Assembly (NCBI RefSeq): GCF_036669915.1
Contig: NC_089314.1
Location: 28,751,592 to 28,815,591 of the forward strand
DNA length: 64,000 nt
Source of the DNA: Pocillopora verrucosa
Lineage: Eukaryota; Cnidaria; Anthozoa; Scleractinia; Pocilloporidae
Reading direction: 5' to 3'
Shown in pieces: positions 22,443 to 64,000 of this stretch. Under the pieces are notes generated by a model. That model did not search any database, was not told the DNA's origin, and saw only the letters and a list, made by a program, of their open reading frames with translations. The translations under genes and the position numbers were made by a program. How positions within the stretch are numbered: position 1 is the stretch's first letter; each line of letters starts with the position of its first letter.

Positions 22443-26012
<3,570 letters not shown>

Positions 26013-36357: not shown

Positions 36358-38801
36358 ATGAGGCTCGCATCCTTGGCGGTACTAGTCGCCATAGGCCTAG
36401 TCCATTTCAAACTATCGGTGAGTACGAGTTTTAAAACGATTCATTAATTTTGGTTTACAAGGCATGTCGACTTGGTCGATCGAACCTTTGATCAATGGAA
36501 CGATTGATCGATCGGTTGGTGGTTGATCAAGGGAGCGTATCAATTTGGATGACTTCCGTCGTGCTTACACAAACTTATTAAATGCAAACGCTGAGGATTT
36601 TGGAGTCAACTTACCATTAAGTTTTCCAAACGGCTGTTATTATAGACATTAACGTCCCTGCAGAATAATATCTGCTCTTAGATGGTTATTTACGGAGTTT
36701 ATTTTTAGCTTTTAGTCAAGTGTGATTTGGATTCCTGAAGTTCTTTTAAGTTCTTAGCTCTTAAATTCAATTACTGTTCTAGAAATTTCAATGTTCAAAT
36801 CTGATATCAATAGGTTAATAGCAGAGACATTTTTAAAAAGTATATCATAGTTTTATTCGTCTGTCTTGGCACCATTTGTAATATTTTTATTCTTCCGCCA
36901 TATTTGGTTTCGTCCCACCTGCTCAGATGCCAAATATGGAAAAAGTGAAGTAAACTGTAAAAAGAGTTGCTTGTTAATTTTTTACAATTACACGTCGTTC
37001 AGATGATAATTTGTCTTTCTCTGTTTCCTGGCTAAAAATTCTAGCTAAAAAATTTTCAAAATATCGAAAAAGACCGTTGGTGGTCTTCATAAAGTTCTCA
37101 AGTTAAAAAGATAGTGCTTTTTCGTGGGAAAGAGAGATAGATAAAAGGATCAAGAAGTCGGCAGAATTAGGGGCAGCCAACCGCCTCCGAAATCTCATCT
37201 ATGATCGATGTTTGCTACTGTGGCAATTACTTTGGCGTCATTATACGTGGTCACAGACAAATCGGTAACAACTTTGTCATGAACACGAGAGTAACTGTAG
37301 TTTAGTGATTATATCAGGTTGTCTTCATGGTGGCATGTGGTATCAAAGTCGGTGGTTTTGATTACAGTTATTCATTTTTCGTCGTACCTTTAATAGCCAT
37401 GAACTTCAGATCTATGTGTCTGTAATTGTAACTTTAATTAAGAGGTGTTTGGATTAGGACTTCGATCCAACGCTAACTTAATAGTCACCAAAGCGCTTCG
37501 TAAGACCTACTAGTAACTTAAATTGCGTTGTTTAAGAATTGTGCCATTTAAATAACTTCAATGACTAATATAAAATTAATGTAAAGGAAAATTTACCCTG
37601 GTGCGATTTTAACTCTTTTTTAATGACGATATCGATGAAGGAGACGTCGTATGTGCGCCTTTCACATAAGAAAAGTTTTTCCTTCCAGCGGCCTATCTGT
37701 AAACCAATACTGCCTGAGTGTCGTTTTTAATGCCGCGTTGTATGACAATCTGAGGGTAAAAACATCTAAGCAGCCTACTTCAGTATTCTAATAAATCAAC
37801 TATCATTTCTTCTCCAGGCGTCTCTGCCCGTGTCTCCAGTCCCTCCTCTTCTTAACAAACTTCTCAAGGATCAGAATGTAACACTGGGTTTCATTCTCAA
37901 AGGATTGCAAGGTCCTCCCGGTGCGAATGGTATGGCTGGAATGTCCGGTCAGCCAGGTCAACCGGGTCCACCGGGATTCAAAGGAGATCCCGGTCCTCCT
38001 GGTTTCCCCGGTACTCCCGGTCTTCCAGGAGCCCCTGGTTTTCAGGGACCTCCAGGTATGGATGGAGCTCCTGGTTCCCCTGGTTTCCCTGGTCCTCCAG
38101 GTTTTCCCGGTGGTAGTGGAATGCCCGGTGTCCCCGGTATGCAAGGACCTCCAGGACCTCCAGGTGCCCCAGGCCCTACACCAATTAGATACGTAAGTAT
38201 ATTTATTTTGATTAGCTCCTTTCTAAAGGTTTCTTAGTATAACTGCAATTTGTCTCTGTTTGACCATAAATACGAGTAGTACGATTCAGAAAATGTATAC
38301 TATTACGACTCGTAATAGTATTTTTAAAAAAATTCATCAAGGTAATTGTTTTTTTTGTCCATTTCCTGCCCTATATTCACGTGCATCATGTATACATATT
38401 TCGGACAAGTTAAAATATGATCCTTCTTTATGAATCTTATTCAGAACGGAACAGTGAAATGTGAAGAGGACACAGCTTGGCTGCGATGTAACGAGTACAA
38501 ACACATAAGCATTATCTCCGCTTTCTGGGGAAGACGAAACTTCGGCCTGTGCACGGAACACACAGGAAACCTACAGTTTAACAAATACTGCCCGACAACG
38601 CCTCTCTTTCTGACAAAAGTTAAGGACGCCTGTGAAGGAACGACCATGTGCGAGATAAGATGCACAAAGTTCTTCTTCAACGATCAATCTTGCGCAGACG
38701 TATACAAATACTTGGAAGTCTACTACAAATGCATTGAAGTTATTAACGGTCACGAGGTTGTGAACGAAGATAACCTACTCAACGCCAATTTCTTGGGTTG
38801 A
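36358..38801 (+). CDS. Nematogalectin-type collagen-lectin B
   Basis: Exons 36358-36417 (signal peptide, 20 codons), 37818-38192 (125 codons) and 38445-38801 (118 codons plus stop) join in phase 0 to 263 residues. After [20 protein letters not shown] comes a short linker, [16 protein letters not shown], homologous to the linker of genes A and D. It leads into 31 uninterrupted Gly-X-Y triplets (49-141), rich in Pro and Phe. The lectin domain (about 146-240) has AFWGR, a KVKDACEG block and [11 protein letters not shown]. Its tail is short and acidic (EVVNEDN), unlike the basic tails of A and D. It lacks a dibasic propeptide site. AATAAA follows at 38922. The role is as for A; the different tail suggests a different partner or position in the capsule (inference). 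Confidence 0.88.
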
Positions 38802-45392: not shown

Positions 45393-46959
45393 ATGAAGGC
45401 TGCTACAGGCCTGCTTAGGCTGGCTTTGGGCCTCGCTTTATTTCTATTAGCGGTAAGTTACTCAATTTTTCTATTACGATAACCGAAGCTAAGCTCCAAA
45501 CAATCTTTTTCGGCTGTCAATCGGTACTTTGGTCGATATCCATCGATGGCAGGTGAAACCTTGACAAGAGAATTGTTGAATTAATACAAATATGGAAGTA
45601 ATTTGAAAAAGCAATATTCTATCTCAAGAAAAATTTATGGTACAAAGACACGGATTAAGTCCATCGGATGACACTGGGTTACATAGTAAAGTATCAAACA
45701 TAGAGCTATTTATAATGCAGAATCTGATCGTAATTGAATCCAACATTTTACCTCGTACCTAGCAATGTTCTCCACTGCAACGCAAGCCACATGTTCTCAA
45801 GAAACGCGACGACATGCTGAGCTATTACTGGGACCAGAAATTGCCCTTAGGCTTCTTTGTTAATGGTCAAGGAGGTTTAATGGGACCTCCAGGGCCACCA
45901 GGACCCCCAGGGGCCCCTGGTTATATGCTTGGTGGCAGTGGAAGTGGAAGTGGTGATGCTGTTGCTCGAGGGGGAATTCCTGGACCTCCGGGGCCCCCGG
46001 GACCTCCTGGTCCACCCGGGCTTGGTGGTGCTTCTGCTGTGAGTAAACTACTTTTCATATCGCTAAATGAACTTGTTGTGTTTTCGGTAAGGATTAGATA
46101 TTGCCGTGTAAAACTATCTGTTAAGAAATCTACTTAAATTAAGGCTCTACAGGATCATTTCAAGTTTTTTTTTCTTTTCTTTTCAAATCAAACGTGAAAC
46201 ATGGCACTAGCTTTATTTGATTGATAATTGTAAGAGTTTTCCAGCCGAGTGGGACTAGTCACAAACAAAATGAACTTATGCTTTCTGCCTTCATGCTTTT
46301 TTTCCATAAAGGAAAAAATGTTTATGCTTCTTTTGAATGGAAGTAATACCTCTTGCTCTGTTGGATGTAGCTACCATCCAGGAAAAGCTGACAAATTGAG
46401 AGGAAACTTTGCCTCTTGGATTTGCGCTATATTTAACCATTCATTTTATTTGTGCTGAAAAAAAGCTAAGGCTGAGGGTTTTTCTTTAAATGGTTTCTTC
46501 GACACGATTTCTTAATTCTCATATTTCAGGGTTGTTATCTCTCTTTTGTTTGTTGCTGAAGGAAAAGTAGCTATTTTTGTCTTTCGTCTCTCTTCCCAGG
46601 GTGCTCAAGAAACCATCACCTGCGAGGGCGAGAAGGAATGGATTGAGTGTCCACAGTACAAAGTTATCAAAATCAGCTCTGCATTCTGGGGTCGAGATGA
46701 TGATGCTACATGCACCACAAACGGCGTTCAACACGGACTCAGCACCTCGGCCATGTGCCCTCAGGACGAATCCAACACTATGACCAAAGTTGAAGGACAA
46801 TGTAAAGACGAGCAAGCCTGTGAACTAGCAGCAACCTCCACCTTCTTTGACAAGACCGATTGTGGACAAGTATATAAATATCTACGTGTGAAATACGAAT
46901 GTCTGCCTAGCGAATCAAGAGTCAAAGCAGCAATTCAAAGATCAAGAATAAGCGGTTAA
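45393..46959 (+). CDS. Nematogalectin-like collagen-lectin C with interrupted collagen
   Basis: Exons 45393-45452 (signal peptide), 45763-46038 and 46600-46959 join in phase 0 to 231 residues. After the signal peptide [20 protein letters not shown] comes a propeptide-like stretch ending in LKKR (32-35), a likely dibasic cleavage site as in minicollagens. Then follows a linker [13 protein letters not shown] matching the linkers of A and B. The collagen is short: five triplets, a GGSGSGSGD insert (77-85) and six more triplets (91-108). The Ser-Gly run is a possible glycosaminoglycan attachment site, a small version of what gene D has. The lectin domain (113 onward) has AFWGR, C.DEQACEL and [11 protein letters not shown], and a short basic tail. 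The acceptor TTTTAG|GCT stands just before the ATG, as in A and B. Confidence 0.87.
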
Positions 46960-49361: not shown

Positions 49362-49796
49362 CTATTTTGCGCCCATTCCACTCATCATTCTACAGTCATA
49401 TACAACCTTCAGAAATTTCGACACGCCAGGACACAATGGTTTCTCAAAGAACGCATCGGACACAGGGAAGCCACAAGTTGGCTGCCCTTCGCAAACATGA
49501 CGCAGCTTCTTCACAGCATACAGAGGTTCCACTGGAGGACACATCTTCATTTGCTCCCTAGGCTTGTCAGGTATACAGGTTTTCAAATCGTTCCTTCCCC
49601 AGAACGCTGAGTTGATCTTTAGTCCTTCTTCCTGTCCAGCGCATGAGAGTGTCAACATGTGTCCCTCGCAACCGAGCGCCGTGGCGTTCGCCTGCCGAAC
49701 CCATTCGGTAAGATTGCTTTCAAAAGGGAAACCGAAAGCTGTAAAAAGCCAGGATAAACACCAGAATATACAACGCCATTCCCAAGGAGCCTGCAT
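49362..49796 (-). CDS. Secreted single-domain SUEL-type lectin E
   Basis: A single open exon of 144 residues on the minus strand. A hydrophobic N-terminus with CIFWCLSWLFTAFGF serves as signal peptide. A SUEL/rhamnose-galactose lectin domain follows (about 42-136) with AFWGR, VKKLRHVCEGQPTC, DAFFE and FLKVVYDC, eight domain cysteines in all. There is no collagen segment, and the signal peptide lies in the same exon as the lectin, unlike genes A to D where they are separated by introns. It may be a stripped-down member or a copy that lost introns. The lectin is the most divergent of the five. It lies between C and D on the opposite strand. Sugar specificity cannot be predicted. Confidence 0.78.
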   Translation of the reverse strand: MQAPWEWRCIFWCLSWLFTAFGFPFESNLTEWVRQANATALGCEGHMLTLSCAGQEEGLKINSAFWGRNDLKTCIPDKPREQMKMCPPVEPLYAVKKLRHVCEGQPTCGFPVSDAFFEKPLCPGVSKFLKVVYDCRMMSGMGAK

Positions 49797-52123
49797 TTCA
49801 GGAAAACAATTTTCGTACTAGATAAGACAGACAAAATGTACGTCTTTTATGTATATCCTTCTCATTTCGTGTTTCCTCAGCCGCTGGTCAACATGCTACA
49901 CACAAGTATTACAATATTAATGACTTTTTGATTCGCCAATTGGCTTTCTGATTCCAGCACCAGTTCTAGTTGTTTTCCTTCTTTTTCATCAAATCGATTA
50001 GCTCAGTGTAACTCGAACACTTTGGTTGACCTGTCCTTAGTTTTCCTATCTATTTTGAGATTGCCCATTATACCGTTTCAAAGTTATTTTGGAATTAACC
50101 TGACTACTTGAAGCTCGAGAACAGGAAGGAAGCTATTAATTCGCATCAGAAGGAGACTAATACATAAGATTAAGTTCATTAAGTTACATTCACGCATGAA
50201 AGTTGCTGCGATTTAACCACCCGAAAGTGGTTAAATTGTGGATTCTCTAGTTCTTTAAAACTGCTCTTTATTGAATTGTTTTGTATGGTATCAGCAGCCC
50301 CTGAAGTACCGCCCTCCCTTGCCGCCCGTTTGTAAATTCGAGAAAATTATTGAAGTACCGTTGCCACTAAATTTTTTTTTGCTAAAGCTGTTATATTTCA
50401 CATCATTAATAACTTAATGTTCTCTCGGCTGCATCTGTTCCTATTTGATTGACGTGCAAAAATATTTTATAAACTGAAAAGCAGAGTTAAATGCCATGTA
50501 TCATTGGAAACAGATTGTGACTTTTGGTAACTGATCTCCACTTTAATGTAATTTTATCTTAAGACGTTGAGAAAACAAAGAGCACTGGTTCCTTTCCTCC
50601 TCAGTAGATCAGACACCAAGTGACAGAGTGACATGTGCTTCAAAACTAACTGATGACCTGATCGAAAACAAAGCAGGTGTTTCCAGTATTCACCCGAAAA
50701 TAGAGATAAGCGATCAATTTTAGGATAATTATCGGGGATAAAAGGCTAGAATATTTTTTTGTGTTGAAAGAGATTTTTTCTCGTAAAACGTTCGCTTCTT
50801 GATGCTCGAGAAACAGGTTTAGTCTCATGCGAAAAGGTGAAGCTAGCGCATGCGTTGTTAACAGATTACATACCTAGGAGATGACTTAATTACGTAACCT
50901 GAAGGATGACTTTATGAAAACAGTATTTGCATGCACGGCCGGCTAGTCATAATTTTGTAAAATTGAAAATTTCTCCTCGTCCGAGGGTAACTTTGGATTT
51001 TTAAAAAATTATTTTGTTATATCACGCTTTCCGTTGTTTGTGTTTCGAAGAAGCTAACTTTGAAATATTTTTTTGTGCGTTTTCGCTTGTAGTTTACTGC
51101 TAATTTGTCAGCTGGATCACCAGAGCAGCCTACCTGTAATCTTATTTAACAAGGTAAGTGAAAAACTACGTTTCGTTTCTTGTTATTAATGTTCTACTTT
51201 AGCGTGCGGTTCACCTACGACGATTTTTGCTATCAAAACTCGGCAACGCTTAACTTAGGTTCAGTAAAAGAGTCCAACTGGCGGCTTAAATTCAACGTGA
51301 GGTAATTGTTTGTGTTACCAAATGGTTCATTTCGTTTAATGTTAGAGACTCAAATAGCATCAGGAACGGAATGACCTCTCCAATTCTCCAATTAATCATA
51401 ATTTACTGATTTTTTTAGACTGTTTGTCAGGGAGATATTGTCCCTTACGCTGAGTCATACTGGTAAATTTTGATAACACTTTGATTAATTTTGGGTTCTG
51501 CAAGAACGTTTTATACTGATATGAAAAAATTCGATATTGGACAATGTAAGTTATATGATATTTGCTGTTATCACTGATCTGTTTTTTCCTCTGTACTTAC
51601 TGCAGTTCGCCAACAAAGCTGGAAAAAGCTGTGCATTAAAAAAACGGCAGAGGGTGCCGGAGATCCCTTTTCCAAACATTGAACAGGTAGGGCACGAAAA
51701 TTGTCTCGCGGAGATGTGCAAAAATTTGGTTCTTTGATTCTTAGACTAGGCGCACGGATAAATGTGAAGATTTATTCGAAATATTTTGCACGAGCATGGT
51801 TTTATGAAAGCGTAGAAATATTTTTCACGAGAAGCCGATGAGATCAAGGTAGTTAAATCTCTCAAGTGTCAGTCCACGACCGCCGTAGAGGGAATCATCA
51901 TTGCCAAGCTCAATGATTCTGATCATTATAGTCGAAAAAAGACAAGTGTCCAACGATATTTAAACTACCGTGACATTTACTGGTCAATTCTGGATGGTTA
52001 AGAGGGGCTTGCTTGAGACCACAAATTAATTAATAGATTCATAAAATTAGCTCATTCACTTCTTTTTAACATAATTAATCATTTTGTGAACATGGCAATA
52101 TTTCTTCTCTATCAAGGTAAAAT
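49797..52123. other. Stretch upstream of gene D with orphan exon-like segments
   Basis: No complete gene. Two exon-like segments with good splice borders in phase 0 lie at 51112-51153 and 51606-51686 (listed separately). ATTACGTAAC, a bZIP-like palindrome, occurs near 50890. Confidence 0.45.
51606..51686 (+). other. Possible alternative 5' exon of gene D with a dibasic site
   Basis: 81 bases between a good acceptor (TACTGCAG) and donor (CAG|GTAGGG), open in phase 0, encode FANKAGKSCALKKRQRVPEI and seven more residues. SCALKKR resembles the propeptide end of gene C (PHVLKKR). A further phase-0 segment at 51112-51153 (CTGGAT..AACAAG|GTAAGT) could precede it. Either could splice straight to the gene D exon at 52746. 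The ATG exon at 52124 has an in-frame TAA just before it and so must be a first coding exon, not an internal one. No signal-peptide exon was found upstream. Confidence 0.35.
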
Positions 52124-55100
52124 ATGACGCTGCTCAGAGCGACTTTAACGACCATTTTAGTCATAACTCTCACTGAGTGTACTAAGGTAAGTCAGTGCAA
52201 TGCATCATACGCATCTATTATGAAAGTTTGTTTCATGCATTTCCTGATACTTTCTTTTATTTCTAAAATCTTTCTTCCGATTGTAACTAAGCGCACTTTG
52301 CGTAACGAATGTAATACTGGATCATTGTCAGACGACGAACTTAGTTTTTGTTCTTTACATAGTTACTCGTGCAAGTTTTCATGGTTTATTGAACCTCTAG
52401 AAAGTTATCAGATATTTGGGTAACCTGTATGCATTATTTCCTTCAGTAACGCTAAATTTATGCGAGAGTCTACCTGTACCGACGGAGATCCTTCCCACAA
52501 GTTGTGAACTGCATTAGCAAAATGGTTCTAAAGTGGTGTCTTGTAAATATTTCCAATTTGGTAGATGAATCATCGTTATGTAATGACTGGCGGACACTGG
52601 TTCCTATTATGACCGAACTTATTCTCAACGCTATCTCAGAAATAAAACAGACAGTTCGTTTGAGCAGTGTGAATTCATAAGTACATTTAAGACTTTGAGC
52701 TTCTGATTTGTTGTTTGAAGAGTTTTATTTCATCCTTTTTATCAGCTTAGTGATGTTCCTGACAATGTACAGCTTCAAAAGGATTCAGATATCAACCTGA
52801 TGGAGGTTTTAGAGAGCCTTGCACCAGTTCCTAGCGAGGAGGTAGTAGCTATCAGACCCAAAGGAGAGGGAATAGAGAGATTTAGGCGAAGAGTGGAGCC
52901 TGCCAGCGGAATCTCATCGCTTTCAGAGCTTCCAGATCTCCCAGCACCCCAAGAAAATAATTCCATCTTCAGTCATCGATCATTTTCTGACAGCGGAGCT
53001 ACTCCTTCTTCTGGAGAAGGCGAGTGGGACAGCGGACACGCTGCGTCATCAAAAACAAAGAAAAGCGAAATAGCCGGAGAGGATGCTTCTGGTTCTGGAG
53101 AGGGGTCTGGGATATTACAGCACGAGCCTACTGAACAAGAAAAACCAGTTGTGGTGACACCAGCTACACTCACGTCGGACGACGAAGGTAGCTCGGTGGC
53201 TCCATCTAGTTTGGCTGGCGCTGCAACAGCACAGCCCCCTCCGGTCGCCACATCACACAATGGCGAGAATAAGCCTTCCAACGCCGTTGCTGGTGCCGTA
53301 TCCTTTAATGCAGTAGAGCCTGAAGAAACTGGATCAGCTCAGCTGCGGTCAGTCTCGAACATGAGTGCTCTAACCCAAACCAAAACTATAATCAAAGAGT
53401 CGCCTGCTGCTCAACTTCCTAAAGAGGAAGTTCAGCAAACGGCTACCACTAACAAAGATGCACCTGAATCCAGCGGAGTGGAAGAAGCAGCTCATTTTGT
53501 TTCATCTGCCGTTACCAAACAGGCTCATACAGCATCTGGATCAGGGGAGTCAAGTGGAAGTGGGTTAAGTGCTGATGAGCTTGCTTTCATTGCTGGTCTT
53601 AAGAAAGCAAAGGGGCAACAGAGTACTCCGCTTCAGACACCACAGAGAGCTAAGCTACCAGGTAGTGTGGGAAGCGATGAAGATGACGATGACAATGATA
53701 ATGTCGATGAGAGTGGAGATGCAAGTGCAGAGCAATCAGATTCAAGTGCTAGCGGAGCACAGGAAGATGAAACGACATCTTCTCAATCTGATGAGGATCA
53801 AAACGAAGAAGCTCAACAGAGATCAAAAACGAGCCAAAGACTCGGAGAGAACGCCTCAGAAGATGACGATGACGATGACGTCTCAGCCGATGGTTCTGGA
53901 TCAGCCTCTGGCGACGATGAAGATTATGACGATGAAGACGACTCTGGGGAGTCAAGTGCTGACAAATCAGAGAGAAGAGATACCATTGTTGATGTTGCTA
54001 GTGGATCTGGAGTTGATTTTCTTTCAGGAGTGGGTGACTCTGATAGCGAAGATGATTCTTCAGAGAGCTCCGGAGAAGATGACGAGCCTGAAGATGACTT
54101 GCCAGGCAGTATAGGTGAAGTGAACGACATTTCAAAATTAGAGCAGAAGCCTGTCCAGGCCGAGACTGCGCCTGGGTTTGCATTTGCGTCTGCATCAGGT
54201 GTGCCTCCCGGTAGTCACGAGCTTGCCCCCGCCTCTGGCTCCGGTTTACCCGATGTACGTCAACAGTCTGTCAAAAAGCCTATGTTAGACCAAACATCAC
54301 CTAAGGCTTCTATTCCATCATCAGGATCAGGGGAAGAAGAGCTACCAGGAAGTGTTGGTGGTATTTCTGACATTGGTCAAGTTGAATCAGCAACACATAC
54401 AGAAACAAACTCTGCTGCCTCAGGCTCAGGTGACTTTAAGACAACATCTCAATATAAACAAGACGAATCACTTCTGCAACAAGTTTTGCAAAGCGAATCT
54501 TCAGGTTCTGGTGAGTCAGAAAAGCAAGATGAGAGTCTTCCAGGAAGTGTGGGTGGACAAATTAACTTGGAAGAAACAATAAGTGCTTCGGGATCTAAAG
54601 CCGAACCTCTCGCAATCGTCAGTCCTGACTTTGGAACAGGTTCAGGCGAAAGTCCAAAGCTTCGCTCTTGGGAATCTGTTGTCTCCCTTCCCCAAGAGTC
54701 TCTCAATTCTGGATCAGGAAGCGATGAGAAGTTTAGTGGCTCTGGAATTGCCGACAACCTGGAATCTTTGGCGTCATCTTCAGAGGACGAGACTCTTCCA
54801 GGAAGTGTTGGAGCTGTCGGTCCCAATCTTATGACTATGGCATCTCCAGAAAATAAGCCGGGTTCTGGGATGGCAGACCAGTCTGGTTCTGGATCTGGAG
54901 TTGGAGGATCAGGGTTGCAAGAGGAAGTTAACTTGATGAGGGCATTTAAGTTTGGCGATAGTTCTGGATCAGGACTGGAGCAATTGGATAACAACGAGAC
55001 CCACGTTGAGAATGAGATAGATTCAGTCAACATAACTAAACCATTACCGGCTTTCGGAGATGGAAGTAACGTAACGCAGTCGGAAAATTCGACTATCATT

Positions 55101-58100
55101 GCACAGACTAAGGAAAACAGCGCCGTGAAGAATAATGAAAGCAGTGGAGAATTTGGACTTTTACAATCCCTTCAACCCTTTGGGGGATCTGGAACTGCAG
55201 AAGAGCCATTACCGGGTGGATTTGGCAATGGTGACAGTACTGACATTCAGTCTCTGGCTGGTTCTGGAGGAGAAGATGCTTCTGGCATTACCTTAAGCTC
55301 CGGCTCCTTTGGCTCCTTTATGGATGAAGGCATCTCTGGATCAGGATCAGGAGTAGCAAACTCGGACGTGATATCCGAATTATCAGGAGGTAGTAGTAGT
55401 GGAAGTGGTAAATTTTCGTCTGACTCAGAGGAGTTGCAATCCCTTTCGAAAAAAGATTATGCTCCTACAGCCTCAGCCTTAGCATCGGCATCTGCTAGTG
55501 CTACGCAAGACAGTGGATCAAGCTCTGGCTCAGGCAACTCTCCGTTACCAATCGCCAAGCACAACTACTCACCAACGATAAAGAGAGTTGGGACAGGTAT
55601 CTCGTTCACCCCTATGGCCGCATCGGCGTCAGGCTCTTCTTCATCTGGCCAATCAGATTCTAGCGCAAGCGCACTTCCGGGTAGCGTTGGTGTCGAGGAG
55701 TCCTTTTCCTCTTCTGGATCTGCAGTCTTTGATACCTCCGGGTCAGGATTTATCCCGATCGGTGACATTCCTCAAGAAGATCTGCTAAACACCGAGGTTG
55801 AGACATCTGCTTCCGGTTCTGATGAAATCAACGTCGTTGAGTCCGGTGCAGGCGAAGGGTCTGGTGCGCACTCAAATAAGGATGAAGAGGTGGAAGAAAC
55901 AGCCTTACGCTCGCACACTGATAACCTGAAACCCATATCTTTCAACCTAGACTCAGCTGGACTTCAAGCGGATGTTCAAGCAGCTCTAGGCAAGACGCCT
56001 ATTAATTTAGGTGTCGGATCAGGCAGTACATATGGCTTAGGTTCTGGTGGAGGGATCGATTACGGATCCACCTCAGACTTCTTATCAGGCTCAGGTGGCA
56101 GCGGTACGTTAGAGCTAACCCCAGCAACCACTCCATCAGATGCGATTGTAAACCTGTTTGGTAATACGTTTGGCTCTGCTGGGAAAGAAAACTCAAGGAG
56201 TTCTAATAATAGTGTGGCTTCGAGTGACGAAGGATCATCATTTAAACATCAAAAGCAAGGAAAGAACAGGCATCAAATACCTGTAAGTGGAAATGATGAG
56301 ACTGCCTTCTCCGACGATGAAGAACAGGTTAGATTTTGTTTCAGTAGAGATATATCATACTAATCCAGTTCGATGCCTGTAGTATATTCTGATGGGGCGC
56401 GTTAATGATAAGCGTAGTCACTGAGATGTTTCTCATTCAAATAAATATCACTCCATCTAGAGGGATATATTATCCAACTTAAAGTCCGAAAGGTGTACAT
56501 GTACGTAAACCAATATGCAGCTACTTTCTCTTAGAAACCCACAAAATGATAGCATGGTTGCTGTCATGGTGGTATGACGTAAAGCTCTTGGAGTAGTTTT
56601 GAGTACATTTCGCAACAGTGAACCGTCGAAGTTTGGCTTTGGAATAACACCTGTAATTTGACCTTGGTTTATAGTGCTTTTATTCCTCAAAGTTCAGTGA
56701 AGTCAAGATTCATTCACTTAATTTAAAATTTCAGCTTGCCGAATGCTCACTATTTTAGAGCCAACGGCTCCAACTTTATTCCGCTTTGATTTAAGTTCAC
56801 ATTCAAGGATTGGTTAAGCTCTTTATCAACCAATGCAACGAGTGCTTGTTCGATTGCGTTGTTTGCTCTCTGTCTCATCAATTTTTGCTCAAGTCCTCGA
56901 AAACATTTAGCTATTTCAGAAAAGCAGATATAAGGAGATACTTAACTAAGTTTGCCTCTATTTTTTTTCAGGTGGAATTTGATCTTCCCAAGCCTGGAGA
57001 CACAATTGACCAACAACTTCTGGACCGATTTATGATCAGTCAAATCTTAGAGCAAAATCTCACATTGTTTTACGGAGGCCTTTCTGGTCGCCCTGGCAAA
57101 CAAGGTCCTGTTGGCCCCCCTGGAGCAACCGGAATGAGGGGTATGACTGGAACTATGGGCCCACCAGGTCCAATTGGTGACGTAGGATCCCCTGGTGCTG
57201 ATGGTGAGTCCGGTCCGATAGGTCCTCCGGGACTCCCTGGGATGCCTGGCTTCAAGGGAGAGAAAGGACCACCAGGTCTAATGGGATTAGCTGGGGAGCC
57301 AGGTGCACCTGGAATTCCGGGACCTTTAGGAAACGTTGGCCCTGCTGGTCCAGAAGCTGTAATGCCGGTAAATAATCGATCTGAGCTTATCTCACAATCC
57401 TTAGAGAGTAATTTACTAGCTTTGAAACATCAAAAAAACACTAAGTAGGAACAACCATTGATAAAAATGGAAATTTGTAGGCTTTGACCCGTCAGAGCCC
57501 CTAACATAAAGGTTCTAAGGCAGAAAATTCTAAAATCATTACACCCCCACTTGCTCAATGCTGATTGAGACAAGTGCCAGAACATAATTTAAAAAATCCT
57601 ACAATTTTTTAGAACTATTAAACCATTTCCTTTTCCCCATACCCGTGCGTTTAAGATATTTTACTCTTACGAGAAACGGCTCAGCTATTTGTCATTGCTA
57701 AGAACAGTTTAACGGGTAAACTGTTTTTCTGTTTGTTTTTTAATACACGAAACTGGCGTAGGCGGCATCATGAATAAAAACGTCAGACCTCTCGGTTTCT
57801 ACTAATTATATAACACTCTAAAGAACACAAACTCATACATCCATGCCCAATTTTAAATTATTTTATCTTATGATTGAATTCGAAACAATAAAACACTAAT
57901 CTTGTTTTTCTTTCATAAAAGTTGTGCGGACGTTTAAGCCCTCACCTTTACAAAACATCCATTGAAAGAAAAGTTCTTAGCTTCAGATGTTATCGTTATC
58001 GTATCATACACGTACGTCGTTTATGTTTACGTCATTTTCTTTATGCGTTCTCAGAACTGTTCTTACATTTGCGAGGGAGAGAAGACTTGGCTTCAGTGTA

Positions 58101-58510
58101 AGCAGTATGAGACCATCAAAATAAACCGTGCGTTCTGGGGACGAGAAGAAAACGAGTTCTGTCCTAAAGCCCCAGTTGGTCTTGTCACAGACAAGATTTG
58201 CGAGACAGATGCAGATAACACATTTAAGAAAGTCGAGAGCCAGTGTAGGAACAATCAAGCGTGTGAGATTGTAGCTTCAAACACGTTCTTCGATGATCCA
58301 ACGTGTAAGAATACGTTCAAATATTTAAAGCTCTGTTACGAGTGTATTCCGGATGAGGTACACACCACAGATGTGTTGCTTGACTTGGGAAAAAGACGAA
58401 AGAGAGGAACTCGTCTGGAGGACGTTCTAAGAAAGCGGAGAGAAAAGTCTGAAAGGGAGAAACTGTTAAAAGACCTTTGGAAGCATCCATATCATGCCAG
58501 AGTCGTGTGA
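52124..58510 (+). CDS. Proteoglycan-like nematogalectin D (Ser-Gly/acidic region + collagen + SUEL lectin)
   Basis: Exons 52124-52186 (signal peptide [21 protein letters not shown]), 52746-56327 (1194 codons), 56972-57367 (132 codons) and 58055-58510 (151 codons plus stop), all in phase 0, give 1498 residues. Residues 22-1215 are low-complexity, rich in Ser, Gly, Asp and Glu, with about twenty SGSG runs in acidic settings ([18 protein letters not shown]), the pattern of chondroitin/heparan attachment sites. Seven LPGS[VI]G-type motifs are spaced through it. The collagen linker [16 protein letters not shown] leads into 31 Gly-X-Y triplets (1251-1343). The lectin (about 1348-1444) has AFWGR and [14 protein letters not shown] and a strongly basic, probably helical tail ([17 protein letters not shown]). 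Lectin, linker and triplet number tie it to gene A. It is probably a secreted capsule or matrix proteoglycan; glycosylation is inferred. Confidence 0.85.
52746..56327 (+). repeat. Single 3.6-kb exon coding the Ser-Gly/Asp-Glu repeat region of gene D
   Basis: One uninterrupted exon, acceptor ATCAG|CTTAGT and donor GAACAG|GTTAGA. The frame is 1194 codons without a stop, while other frames also stay partly open because of codon bias (TCT GGA, AGT GGA, GAA GAT). LPGS-type motifs lie near 53652, 54093, 54338, 54534, 54792, 55207 (variant LPGGFG) and 55672. Poly-Asp/Glu blocks are concentrated at 53670-54110. The unit is irregular, so it is a motif-rich region and not a strict tandem array. Confidence 0.85.
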
Positions 58511-60880
58511 TTGGCTTTCTTCCAATCTGTGCATGTATATCTAGATCTTAGGTATTTTGTAAATAGCTTATTGTCGTCTTTCTTCGAAAGATAAGGTGAA
58601 AGTGGGCCACTGAGATAAAGGGGCTGGCTGAACCGAGCCTCCTCTGGAATACTGTTATGGATCTGTTAATTTTGGGGACTCGTTTAAAACAAGAAGATGA
58701 TTAATCATTCATATGGTCTTAAAAAATCATCCGTGATAAGACCTCGAATCAGTATGAATCTCTTCAAAGAAATTAGCTGAATTTTGCTTGTGTACAACAT
58801 AATCAAGTTTTATGTAGGCAAGAATAGTGACGAAGAGTTGAAAAACTACGTGAGTTGGTCAATATGGCGACTTTAGAATAATACTTATGCTCTTGAGTTG
58901 CAAAAAAGACGACGTTTCTGTGCAAGAAAAGAGAGAGGTTTGTATTTCGGATTCCTTTGGCGCTCTTTGAACCCAATCAATAGTTTCTTTTTCAGGAAAG
59001 AGCTGACTAGATATATTTTCATGCCTGCGTACAGTTGTAACATCAAATGCCTCGAGTTCTGATTAAAAAAATTTCTTTGGCAGGAAATAAATGCAACATC
59101 TCGCTGGAAAAGCAATAAAAGATTAGGCTTGAATGATAATGAGTCTCGAAACCTTTCGATCCAATCAAAAGTTATTCACTGTACATGTGTTTACACCGTT
59201 TTCCTCTATAGGAAAATACACGAAATGAATTCTGTCTGTAAAATAGGTTTGATTATTTTATATTGAACATAAAGCTAAAGATTGTATAATAATGAAGATA
59301 TGGCACCCTTTCGGTAATCGTGAAACAGGAGTTATGCCCACAGCTGATGAATTTTACCCAAAGTCACACTGACTGATATGTTAAATCAAATATATCTCGT
59401 CGTTTCATTAGAGGGGAATTCTACACCAATAGGGAGTTTCTGAGATATTTCCTTGAATAAAATGTTTTCAAGAAAGAATACTTGGTGTGAAATGTCTTTT
59501 TGGAGTTATCCTTTTTGCTAGTGAGCCCCACTGAAACTGGGGATCTAACACTAACCACATCGATGCATTGCAATGCAATGCAATGCAATGCAAAGCAACC
59601 AGACTCGTTCCAGCGGTTTGAGTGAAATGACTGTTAACTGTTTGCCAGGTCACCGCTGACAGTCTCTAACTGTTTGCCAAGTCACTAAACGCGTTGGAGA
59701 ACCGTGAGATAGCTTGAATATTGGTCAACAAAAGAGATAAAACCAAGTGGGTTAATTAAACCGATTCTTACGGTTCGTGAGCGCGTGGTTCATTAAGAAA
59801 AAAAAATAGAAACCTAACATCACTCAATGGAACCAATAATTCAGAAAGTATGAATGCTACAATTCTTTCTCGTTGACATAAAAGAGGAGAGGAAAGCGTA
59901 ATGGCCTAAAATAGAAAAAAAGAATCGCAAGGGGCCTAAAAGTTGGTGTTTTATTAAAACTAAGGAGTCGATTTCCATGTAAATAAGCAACAATCTGTGT
60001 CACGTTATGACAAGATATTTTCTTGTTATTGGTAACTGGTTAATCTCAAAGCTTCTTTGGATCGCCGCGGGTTTGTATCCATGGCGCCTTTCCATACAAG
60101 CGACTAAAACTTACACAAATTGTCACAGCCTATATGTAGCTATCTTGCTCATTATGTTCCAAGCTGAGACTAACTGAAAACTCTTAAATACTACACACAT
60201 GCCTCTTGGATAATGGAGTTCAGTGAAGGCTTGTATTCTTGACTTAACGAAACATTTTGTTTGCGCGATCAAAAATCTATTTTTATACCATTGAACTAAG
60301 TTACAAAAAACTTCTGGAAATATTCATGAATGAAATCATCAGTTCAGTACTCTTGATAAGTTCAGTCTCTGAACAGATAAACTAATTTCATTCTTATACT
60401 TTTTTGTTTTCTTTCCGTAAGAAATATGTTCAACTCCGGAAGGGTTGATTACCATGAGCGTTTCCTTCAGTGAAAACCGTTTTGGTACCCTCCTAGATAC
60501 TCCTAACCACTAATTTTTTTTTTAAACAATTAGCTTGCGGTGGTATTTCATGCAAAATCAATTTTTACCAAGTCTATGAAAAGTCAGCCCTACTGCACGT
60601 TGTGATGATTTGCATTCTGTGCACTTTTGTACAAAAAAGCGTTGCTCACAAAGGATAAAGGTCCCTTTGAAAAGTTCACCTTGCAATGAATTTCGCTGAA
60701 GGTGGTGCGATTCGATCTTGCATGACTGCGAATTTGTTGAACAAAGCTAGAATTGTATTTTTTGCGTTTTTGCGTTCTCCATCTCTAGTAAAAAGCTATT
60801 TCACACGTTTAAACAGTTTTAGACTTTATCTCAAAACTGTTCTTATAAACAGCACGAAATATGGAAGCCCTTCTACAAAG
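58511..60880. other. 3' flank of gene D
   Basis: No gene seen. AATAAA hexamers near 59114 and 59456 are candidate polyadenylation sites of gene D. A short CAATG pentanucleotide repeat lies at 59562-59592. Open frames here are short and unrecognisable. Confidence 0.55.
59562..59592. repeat. CAATG pentanucleotide microsatellite
   Basis: gcattgcaatgcaatgcaat and continuation: about five tandem copies of tgcaa/caatg, nearly perfect. Confidence 0.8.
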
Positions 60881-63800
60881 TTAACCCTTTAAACCCTAAG
60901 AGCGACTAGTATCAAATTTCTCCCTACAGTACCACCCCTAAATCACATGTTAAGGTTATGAGAATAAAAGAGTGACCCCAAGAGTGACTAGTATCAAATT
61001 TCTCCCTACAGTACCACCGCTGAATCACATGTTAAGGTTATGAGAATAAAAGAATGACCCCAAGAGTGACTAGTATCAAATTTCTCCCTACAGTACCACC
61101 CCTAAGTCACATGTTAAGGTTATGAGAATAAAAGAGTGACCCCAAGAGTGACTAGTATCAAATTTCTCCCTACAGTACCACCCCTGAATCACATGTTAAG
61201 GTTATGAGAATAAAAGAGTGACCCCAAGAGTGACTAGTATCAAATTTCTCCCTACAGTACCACCCCTGAATCACATGTTAAGGTTATGAGAATAAAAGAG
61301 TGACCCCAAGAGTGACTAGTATCAAATTTCTCCCAACAGTACCACCCCTGAATCACATGTTAAGGTTATGAGAAAAAAAGGGTGACCCCAAGAGTGACTA
61401 GTATCAAATTTCTCCCTACAGTACCACCCCTGAATCACATGTTAAGGTTATGAGAATAAAAGAGTGACCCCAAGAGTGACTAGTATCAAATTTCTCCCTA
61501 CAGTACCACCCCTGAATCACATGTTAAGGTTATGAGAATAAAAGAGTGACCCCAAGAGTGACTAGTATCAAATTTCTCCTTACAGTACCACCCTTGAATC
61601 ACATGTTAAGGTTATGAGAATAAAAGGGTGACCCCAAAAGTGACTAGTATCAAATTTCTCCCTACAGTACCACCCCTGAATCACATGTTAAGGTTATGAG
61701 AATAAAAGAGTGACCCCAAGAGTGACTAGTATCAAATTTCTCCCTACAGTACCACCCCTGAATCACATGTTAAGGTTATGAGAATAAAAGAGTGACCCCA
61801 AGAGTGACTAGTATCAAATTTCTCCCTACAGTACCACCCCTGAATCACATGTTAAGGTTATGAGAATAAAAGAGTGACCCCAAGAGTGACTAGTATCAAA
61901 TTTCTCCCAACAGTACCACCCCTGAATCACATGTTAAGGTTATGAGAATAAAAGAGTGACCCCAAGAGTGACTAGTATCAAATTTCTCCCTACAGTACCA
62001 CCCCTGAATCACACGTTAAGGTTATGAGAATAAAAGAGTGACCCCAAGAGTGACTAGTATCAAATTTCTCCCAACAGTACCACCCCTAAGTCACATGTTA
62101 AGGTTATGAGAATAAAAGAGTGACCCCAAGAGTGACTAGTATCAAATTTCTCCCTACAGTACCACCCCTGAATCACATGTTAAGGTTATAAGAATAAAAG
62201 AATGACCCCAAGAGTGACTAGTATCAGATTTCTCCCAACAGTACCACCCCTGAATCACATGTTAAGGTTATAAGAATAAAAGAATGACCCCAAGAGTGAC
62301 TAGTATCAAATTTCTCCCCACAGTACCACCCCTAAATCACATGTTAAGGTTATGAGAATAAAAGAGTGACCCCAAGAGTGACTAGTATCAAATTTCTCCC
62401 TACAGTACCACCCCTGAATCACATGTTAAGGTTATGAGAATAAAAGAGTGACCCCAAGAGTGACTAGTATCAAATTTCTCCCAACAGTACCACCCCTGAA
62501 TCACGTGTTAAGGTTATGAGAATAAAAGAGTGACCCCAAGAGTGACTTGTATCAAATTTCTCCCAACAGTACCACCCCTAAGTCACATGTTAAGGTTATG
62601 AGAATAAAAGAGTGACCCCAAGAGTGACTAGTATCAAATTTCTCCCTACAGTACCACCCCTGAATCACATGTTAAGGTTATAAGAATAAAAGAATGACCC
62701 CAAGAGTGACTAGTATCAGATTTCTCCCAACAGTACCACCCCTGAATCACATGTTAAGGTTATAAGAATAAAAGAATGACCCCAAGAGTGACTAGTATCA
62801 AATTTCTCCCTACAGTACCACCCCTAAATCACATGTTAAGGTTATGAGAATAAAAGAGTGACCCCAAGAGTGACTAGTATCAAATTTCTCCCTACAGTAC
62901 CACCCCTGAATCACATGTTAAGGTTATGAGAATAAAAGAGTGACCCCAAGAGTGACTAGTATCAAATTTCTCCCTACAGTACCACCCCTGAATCACATGT
63001 TAAGGTTATGAGAATAAAAGAGTGACCCCAAGAGTGACTAGTATCAAATTTCTCCCTACAGTACCACCCCTGAATCACATGTTAAGGTTATGAGAATAAA
63101 AGAGTGACCCCAAGAGTGACTAGTATCAAATTTCTCCCTACAGTACCACCCCTGAATCACATGTTAAGGTTATGAGAATAAAAAAGTGACCCCAAGAGTG
63201 ACTTGTATCAAATTTCTCCCTACAGTACCACCCCTAAATCACATGTTAAGGTTATGAGAATAAAAGAGTGACCCCAAGAGTGACTAGTATCAAATTTCTC
63301 CCTACAGTACCACCCCTGAATCACATGTTAAGGTTATGAGAATAAAAGAGTGACCCCAAGAGTGACTAGTATCAAATTTCTCCCTACAGTACCACCCCTG
63401 AATCACACGTTAAGGTTATGAGAATAAAAGAGTGACCCCAAGAGTGACTAGTATCAAATTTCTCCCTACAGTACCACCCCTGAATCACATGTTAAGGTTA
63501 TGAGAATAAAAGAGTGACCCCAAGAGTGACTTGTATCACATTTCTCCCTACAGTACCACCCCTGAATCACATGTTAAGGTTATGAGAATAAAAGAGTGAC
63601 CCCAAGAGTGACTAGTATCAAATTTCTCCCTACAGTACCACCCCTGAATCACATGTTAAGGTTATGAGAATAAAAGAGTGACCCCAAGAGTGACTAGTAT
63701 CAAATTTCTCCCTACAGTACCACCCCTGAATCACATGTTAAGGTTATGAGAATAAAAGAGTGACCCCAAGAGTGACTTGTATCAAATTTCTCCCTACAGT

Positions 63801-64000
63801 ACCACCCCTGAATCACATGTTAAGGTTATGAGAATAAAAGAGTGACCCCAAGAGTGACTAGTATCGAATTTCTCCCTACAGTACCACCTCTGAATCACAC
63901 GTTATGGTCATGAGAATAGAGGAAACGATCACTAAAGAAAGAAGGTTAAGATTGGTAAACAAATTCTCCTCGTCAGCACCTAGGAAACGTATAGAGAGCA
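60881..64000 (+). repeat. 82-bp satellite array expanded inside a family 1 foldback element
   Basis: The element begins TTAACCCTTTAAACCCTAAG at 60881. The first unit starts agtg/agcgactagtatcaaatt at 60901, and units repeat at exactly 82-bp spacing: the same point falls at 60983, 62131 (15 units) and 63853 (36 units), so no indel has accumulated. Units contain ctccctacagtaccacccct, gaatcacatgttaaggttat and gagaataaaagagtgacccc and differ by a few substitutions (ccctacag/cccaacag, cctgaatc/cctaaatc/cctaagtc, ttatgag/ttataag). After the 36 full units the sequence leaves the repeat and continues as the normal element body (aacgatcac, caaattctcctcgtcagcac, ctaggaaacgtatagagagc). It is cut by the window end before the 3' terminus. 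Confidence 0.95.

Follow-up and report, generated by a model that had tools for sequence, protein, structure and literature searches.

A scaffold role has been assigned to nematogalectin, which would connect minicollagens with a glycan sheath made up mainly of non-sulfated chondroitin (PMC9205923). The locus described here raises the question of whether a member of this family could carry chondroitin itself. The locus, gene D, lies in a 64,000-nucleotide window from the coral Pocillopora verrucosa (GCF_036669915.1, contig NC_089314.1, positions 28,751,592 to 28,815,591 of the forward strand), and positions below are those of the window. Papers are cited by PubMed Central number, and statements drawn from them refer to the excerpts covered. 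We found that the four exons of gene D read as one 1498-residue protein, in the order signal peptide, 1194-residue acidic Ser-Gly region, 31 Gly-X-Y triplets, SUEL lectin and basic tail. Our best explanation is that the product of gene D is a single secreted protein of the nematogalectin family, most likely nematogalectin-C, whose Ser-Gly clusters carry chondroitin. We give this joint reading a probability of roughly 0.45.

We examined the gene model exon by exon. All introns are GT-AG and all junctions are phase 0 (52186/GTAAGT, TATCAG/52746, 56327/GTTAGA, TTTCAG/56972, 57367/GTAAAT and CTCAG/58055). The length of each coding exon is divisible by 3, and the spliced frame has a single stop, its final codon, which the end coordinate 58510 takes in. 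Exon 1 is a predicted signal peptide, as judged by its phase-0 donor, found also in four sibling genes, and by its hydrophobic core (Kyte-Doolittle 9-mer maximum of 2.5, versus 2.7 to 3.1 in the siblings). The 1194 codons of exon 2 lie within a stop-free frame of 1214 codons, and the G+C content of this exon by codon position is 0.575/0.514/0.359, compared with a flatter 0.29 to 0.42 in the three introns. Pfam matched Collagen PF01391 at 56.8 bits (cut-off, 27.2) and SUEL PF02140 at 69.3 bits (cut-off, 31.4), and found no family match for exon 2 at an E value of 1 or below. The intron at 57368-58054 separates the collagen and lectin exons. The signal exon has one Cys, exons 2 and 3 have none, and the lectin exon has ten. 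The initial annotation had called these junctions, the 1194-codon exon, the 31 unbroken triplets and the lectin from the letters, and each of these calls was confirmed.

Do the long exon and the collagen-lectin exons belong to one transcript or to two genes? Past donor 56327, the 11 in-frame residues are unlike exon 2; their log10 likelihood ratio is -4.4, below that of every 11-residue window within the exon. We scored splice sites with vertebrate-type matrices for gene D and for genes A to C, its siblings in the window; this leaves aside a fifth collagen-SUEL gene, L019, found on the same contig at a distance of about 1.5 Mb. Acceptor 56972 scored 8.8, and donor 56327 scored a moderate 2.9, with the donors of genes A to C spanning 2.1 to 6.3. 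In the exon 2 frame the first Met does not come before residue 40, and the open frame of exon 3 has no upstream Met, so both exons need an exon upstream of them.

On a two-gene reading, one gene, made of exons 1 and 2, would encode a secreted acidic protein with its end at 56363; the collagen-lectin exons would form the other gene, with a first exon of their own. Consistent with this, a stop lies 11 codons beyond donor 56327, with an AATAAA after it in intron 2. The donor itself also gives some ground for doubting a single transcript, as exon 2 holds 177 GT sites, of which 6 equal or exceed its score, and one of the better ones, at 56282, is in phase 0. However, about 0.9 polyadenylation hexamers are expected by shuffling, and 61% of shuffles contain at least one. 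The change in composition past the donor and the missing Met upstream of exon 3 also argue against two genes. Finally, a scan of 52746-56960 for first exons (ATG, 14 to 40 codons, donor score > 2 and hydrophobic core > 1.8) found no signal-peptide-like phase-0 exon. We consider two genes very improbable. Our judgement from the sequence, held with good confidence, is that exons 1 to 4 of gene D form one transcript, and the long exon is very probably part of the transcript of the collagen-lectin exons.

We then characterized the product of exon 2. It contains 18.8% Ser, 12.1% Gly, 9.1% Glu and 7.5% Asp, and its net charge is -134. Ser-Gly (SG) dipeptides number 71, or 2.6 times expectation; in 2000 composition shuffles the count averaged 27 and never rose above 43. 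SGSG occurs 19 times counting overlaps and 17 times without them (0.6 expected; maximum of 5 in 2000 shuffles), which bears out an earlier count of about twenty runs. LPG is found seven times, compared with 0.4 expected by shuffling, and there are six copies of LPGS[VI]G. The serines of the SG sites are encoded by TCT (27), TCA (21), TCC (6), TCG (1), AGT (10) and AGC (6), that is, 55 TCN and 16 AGY codons, and the sites are spread over 19 codon pairs. Tandem-repeat analysis of the exon found short arrays only. The mixed Ser codons and short arrays suggest that the pattern is maintained at the protein level or is old, and we rejected the view that the SG runs arose when a DNA repeat expanded recently. 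When we searched the 353-Mb genome with exon 2, the sole match among six scored candidates was exon 2 itself. An antisense open frame of 240 codons also lies inside the exon (54449-55171, minus strand); it is probably a by-product of biased composition.

We compared gene D with its siblings. Genes A, B, C and L019 share one plan, in which a signal-peptide exon, an exon with a conserved segment and Gly-X-Y triplets, and a SUEL exon follow each other in phase 0. Of the collagen-SUEL genes with the nematogalectin plan, of which there are at least five, gene D alone has the 3.6-kb exon; the count is a lower bound drawn from the window and 37 fetched loci, with upstream DNA examined for part of 73 SUEL places. 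Another locus, L009, was set aside; its layout differs, with short collagen stretches several kilobases from SUEL frames. The closest relative is gene A, with which gene D shares 71 of 112 residues (63%) in the SUEL segment and 23 of 39 in the N-terminal conserved segment. Genes A, B and D each have 31 triplets.

Nematogalectins are described as having a signal peptide, a conserved region, collagen, a gal-lectin and often a basic tail; one intron follows the signal peptide and another precedes the lectin (PMC4195985). Gene D has a signal exon ended by an intron, a conserved region (a match judged against gene A, within this genome), Gly-X-Y triplets, an intron-separated SUEL domain and a basic tail. 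This architecture, together with close paralogy to gene A, supports the proposal in the initial annotation that gene D belongs to the nematogalectin family. One type, nematogalectin-C (Shpirer et al. 2014), combines a signal peptide, a long variable N-terminal region, collagen and a gal-lectin, and has been reported in anthozoans, including Acropora digitifera (PMC4195985). Gene D has the nematogalectin features and, among the loci covered, is the sole gene of the plan with a long N-terminal end, 1194 residues after the signal peptide. Nematogalectin-C is the most economical reading. By its sequence, gene D is probably the nematogalectin-C of this anthozoan, a little-studied type. Intron structure may weigh against this assignment. 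In a passage on myxozoans, the long region of nematogalectin-C is reported to hold five or more extra introns (PMC4195985), and gene D has one extra intron relative to its siblings, with the 3.6-kb exon uninterrupted. It is also possible that gene D is a lineage-specific duplicate of gene A that gained exon 2. The earlier statement that no nematogalectin with such a domain had been described is not supported as worded, since a long N-terminus on nematogalectin-C was already reported (PMC4195985). In the literature covered, which leaves supplements outside its scope, the Ser-Gly proteoglycan-like composition of this end is undescribed.

Could the SG clusters carry chondroitin? We found at least two acidic neighbours at 26 of the 30 SG clusters in exon 2. 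The Caenorhabditis elegans chondroitin motif [ED][GA]SG (PMC8418075) occurs 5 times against 0.94 expected, a count reached in 7 of 2000 shuffles. Two looser patterns, [ED].SG (16 versus 4.5 expected) and [ED].{1,2}SG.G (12 versus 1.1), exceed all 2000 shuffles, and this excess follows largely from the enrichment of SG itself. We also compared acid frequencies around SG serines and around the other serines of the exon. They are raised at +4 (0.35 versus 0.18), -2 (0.23 versus 0.13) and +9 (0.27 versus 0.17), lowered at -1 (0.08 versus 0.18) and -8 (0.11 versus 0.18), and about equal at most offsets. The acidic context that had been ascribed to the SGSG runs is therefore true of the region as a whole and hardly specific to SG. 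We consider it plausible, from these patterns, that the exon 2 region of gene D is a chondroitin-bearing core. A search of the literature, with subscription journals mostly outside its scope, found no named nematocyst chondroitin core protein.

Several observations tell against a chondroitin-bearing core. Gly-Ser is enriched as well (55 versus 27 expected), and acids are scarcely denser around SG serines than around other serines of exon 2, so a plain Gly-Ser-rich acidic linker could give the same pattern. Motifs alone are ambiguous and do not identify proteoglycans (PMC8418075). In Hydra, the chondroitin of the cuticle, as distinct from the nematocyst, seemed to be without large core proteins (PMC3531485). 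The Gly-Ser enrichment, the placing of the acids and the ambiguity of motifs support an alternative in which the protein is the same single chain and the Ser-Gly region is an acidic spacer, unglycosylated or merely O-glycosylated, that serves charge, swelling or calcium binding and has no glycosaminoglycan. In contrast, SG exceeds Gly-Ser (71 versus 55), and the two looser acidic patterns are in excess, although much of this follows from SG enrichment. A phosphoprotein (Fam20C-type) version of the spacer is not favoured, with S-x-E at chance level (22 versus 20.6). We regard a spacer as possible, short of probable.

Since every junction is phase 0, exon 2 could also be an optional cassette. 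Exon 1 would then be joined directly to exon 3, giving a standard nematogalectin of 304 residues, and the long form would be made in some cnidocyte types. The short form matches the sibling plan, and Hydra nematogalectins are alternatively spliced with the signal peptide conserved (PMC6134521, PMC4619090). We propose this tentatively; it is compatible with the best explanation given above. A further alternative is that the protein belongs to another matrix, the skeletal organic matrix or mucus, and not to the nematocyst. The window is from a coral, and an acidic secreted protein rich in Ser, Asp and Glu would suit a calcifying matrix. However, gene D sits in a nematogalectin cluster, and nematogalectins are cnidocyte specific in Nematostella (PMC12549020). 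We consider another matrix unlikely.

If gene D is a chondroitin-bearing nematogalectin-C, it might act as follows. The chain would enter the secretory pathway of stinging cells with its Ser-Gly region disordered, and an N-terminal piece would be cut off at RFRRR. Serines of the SG clusters would be xylosylated and then extended with chondroitin, so that the gene D product would carry the glycan itself. Three chains would join through the Gly-X-Y segment, perhaps with products of gene A or B, whose helix length equals that of gene D. In such a trimer, as many as three very long polyanionic arms would point one way, and three lectins with their basic tails would lie on the opposite side. These lectins and tails would bind glycans or chondroitin on neighbouring molecules, and the basic tails of genes D and A could hold chondroitin chains. 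The collagen segment would dock into the wall of the capsule or tubule, and the outcome would be a cross-linked, strongly hydrated and highly charged matrix.

Table 1. Features of gene D and of related genes in the window (window positions).
Feature	Position	Strand	Details
Gene D exon 1, predicted signal peptide	52124..52186	+	21 codons, phase-0 donor GTAAGT
Gene D exon 2, Ser-Gly/Asp-Glu-rich	52746..56327	+	1194 codons; from composition and search of own genome
First 49 codons of exon 2, candidate propeptide with furin-type site	52746..52892	+	no SG, ends RFRRR; processing putative
AATAAA in gene D intron 2	56440..56445	+	would favour an early transcript end
Gene D exon 3	56972..57367	+	132 codons
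Exon 3, conserved segment ahead of triple helix	56972..57076	+	homologous to gene A, 23/39 identical
Exon 3, Gly-X-Y segment	57077..57355	+	31 uninterrupted triplets, number as in genes A and B
Gene D exon 4, SUEL lectin and C-terminal tail	58055..58510	+	151 codons and stop
SUEL_Lectin PF02140 in gene D	58091..58345	+	Pfam match
Basic C-terminal tail of gene D	58385..58507	+	contains GKRRKRG; net +8 over residues 1451-1498 (last 48)
Gene A, signal / Gly-X-Y / SUEL	22443..26012	-	exons 26012-25944, 23485-23072, 22841-22443; closest to gene D
Gene B	36358..38801	+	exons 36358-36417, 37818-38192, 38445-38801
Gene C	45393..46959	+	exons 45393-45452, 45763-46038, 46600-46959; letter gives window order, not nematogalectin type C
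SUEL-only open frame between genes C and D	49365..49817	-	55.5 bits, N-terminal hydrophobic stretch

Some siblings depart from gene D in detail. The lectin exon of gene A has eight Cys residues compared with ten in gene D, where the extra ones lie in NCSY and LKLCYEC (within 58055-58507) and could form an additional disulfide. An AlphaFold model of the SUEL exon, made with three alignment rows, was poor (mean pLDDT, a per-residue confidence score, of 42.2) and was not used. In gene C, the collagen exon carries a 15-residue Ser-Gly interruption between two Gly-X-Y stretches of 7 triplets each. This insert, which contains SGSGSGD, resembles serglycin and hints, if slightly, at a recurrence of such sites within the cluster. 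L019 (L019:436-1152, minus strand) has 26 triplets, a long C-terminal extension rich in Ser, Lys and Arg, and six Cys residues in all.

The 3' part of exon 4 of gene D and the DNA downstream of it are tandemly duplicated, at 58312-62442 in the window and at L031:747-5574 beyond it, with 87 to 93% identity over the pieces nearest gene D and 97.6% over the piece in L030. The duplicated lectin end is a decayed fragment, and we found no Ser-Gly exon alongside it. An 82-bp tandem repeat (60893-63918; 36.9 copies, 97% matches) begins downstream of gene D, at a distance of about 2.4 kb. Outside the window, beside gene D, lie two near-identical single-frame GT31 galactosyltransferase genes (L030:1811-2827 and L031:6262-7278, both on the minus strand); the L030 copy matches PF01762 at 145 bits. 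We do not claim that this neighbour is the linkage enzyme beta3GalT6, as it scored 117.3 bits with B3GALT5 and 102.3 with B3GNT2 versus 64.5 with B3GALT6. Searches with the SUEL exon or a three-sequence SUEL alignment found no relatives in viral contigs, where one search gave no pattern match and another gave 33 stretches, none of which was confirmed. A SUEL search of bacterial and archaeal genome contigs matched 61 stretches, again with none confirmed.

The link between minicollagens and chondroitin has already been ascribed to ordinary nematogalectin (PMC9205923), and a covalent version of it would be new within the literature covered. With dozens of Ser-Gly sites on a nematogalectin chain, gene D would be a direct candidate for the core protein of nematocyst chondroitin. 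If the candidate is correct, nematogalectin-C would gain a function for its long N-terminus, a feature noted in 2014. Even without glycosylation, the fusion of such a polyanion to a capsule protein would be unusual. A broader proposal is that gene D is the missing nematocyst chondroitin core in corals, combining glycosaminoglycan carrier, triple helix and lectin, so that the sugar matrix of the capsule would be covalently part of the collagen wall and self-cross-linked by lectin-glycan contacts, with exon 2 a cassette used in certain cnidocyte types and nematogalectin-C acting likewise across cnidarians. We find this proposal doubtful at present.

How does gene D compare with known systems? 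Aggrecan and the other vertebrate lecticans contain Link modules and a C-type lectin and are not known to have a triple helix. They are like gene D in working, as both place a long Ser-Gly domain and a C-terminal lectin on one chain. Pfam found neither Link nor C-type lectin modules in gene D, where its only matches were Collagen and SUEL, in exons 3 and 4. Nor does gene D have the Cys-rich domains that flank the collagen of minicollagens, as exons 2 and 3 are without Cys. NSP3 has a gal-lectin near that of anthozoan nematogalectin A and has no collagen (PMC6134521); by domain content we liken it to the SUEL-only frame between genes C and D and not to gene D. The chondroitin proteoglycans of C. 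elegans are like gene D in their Ser-Gly sites with acidic neighbours, and there chondroitin occurs on CPG-11, a collagen, and separately on CPG-12, a C-type lectin protein (PMC8418075). Attachment has been demonstrated in C. elegans (PMC8418075) and is predicted in gene D, and we claim no relationship between the two. Closer at hand, the canonical nematogalectins A and B and nematogalectin-related genes, represented here by genes A, B, C and L019, have the common phase-0 plan of signal, Gly-X-Y and SUEL exons; they differ from gene D in that none shows the 3.6-kb exon. Nematogalectin-C may differ in its introns, with at least five extra ones reported in the myxozoan passage versus one in gene D, and orthology is proposed by architecture. 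Both have a signal peptide, a long N-terminal region, collagen and a gal-lectin, with introns after the signal peptide and between the collagen and the lectin (PMC4195985).

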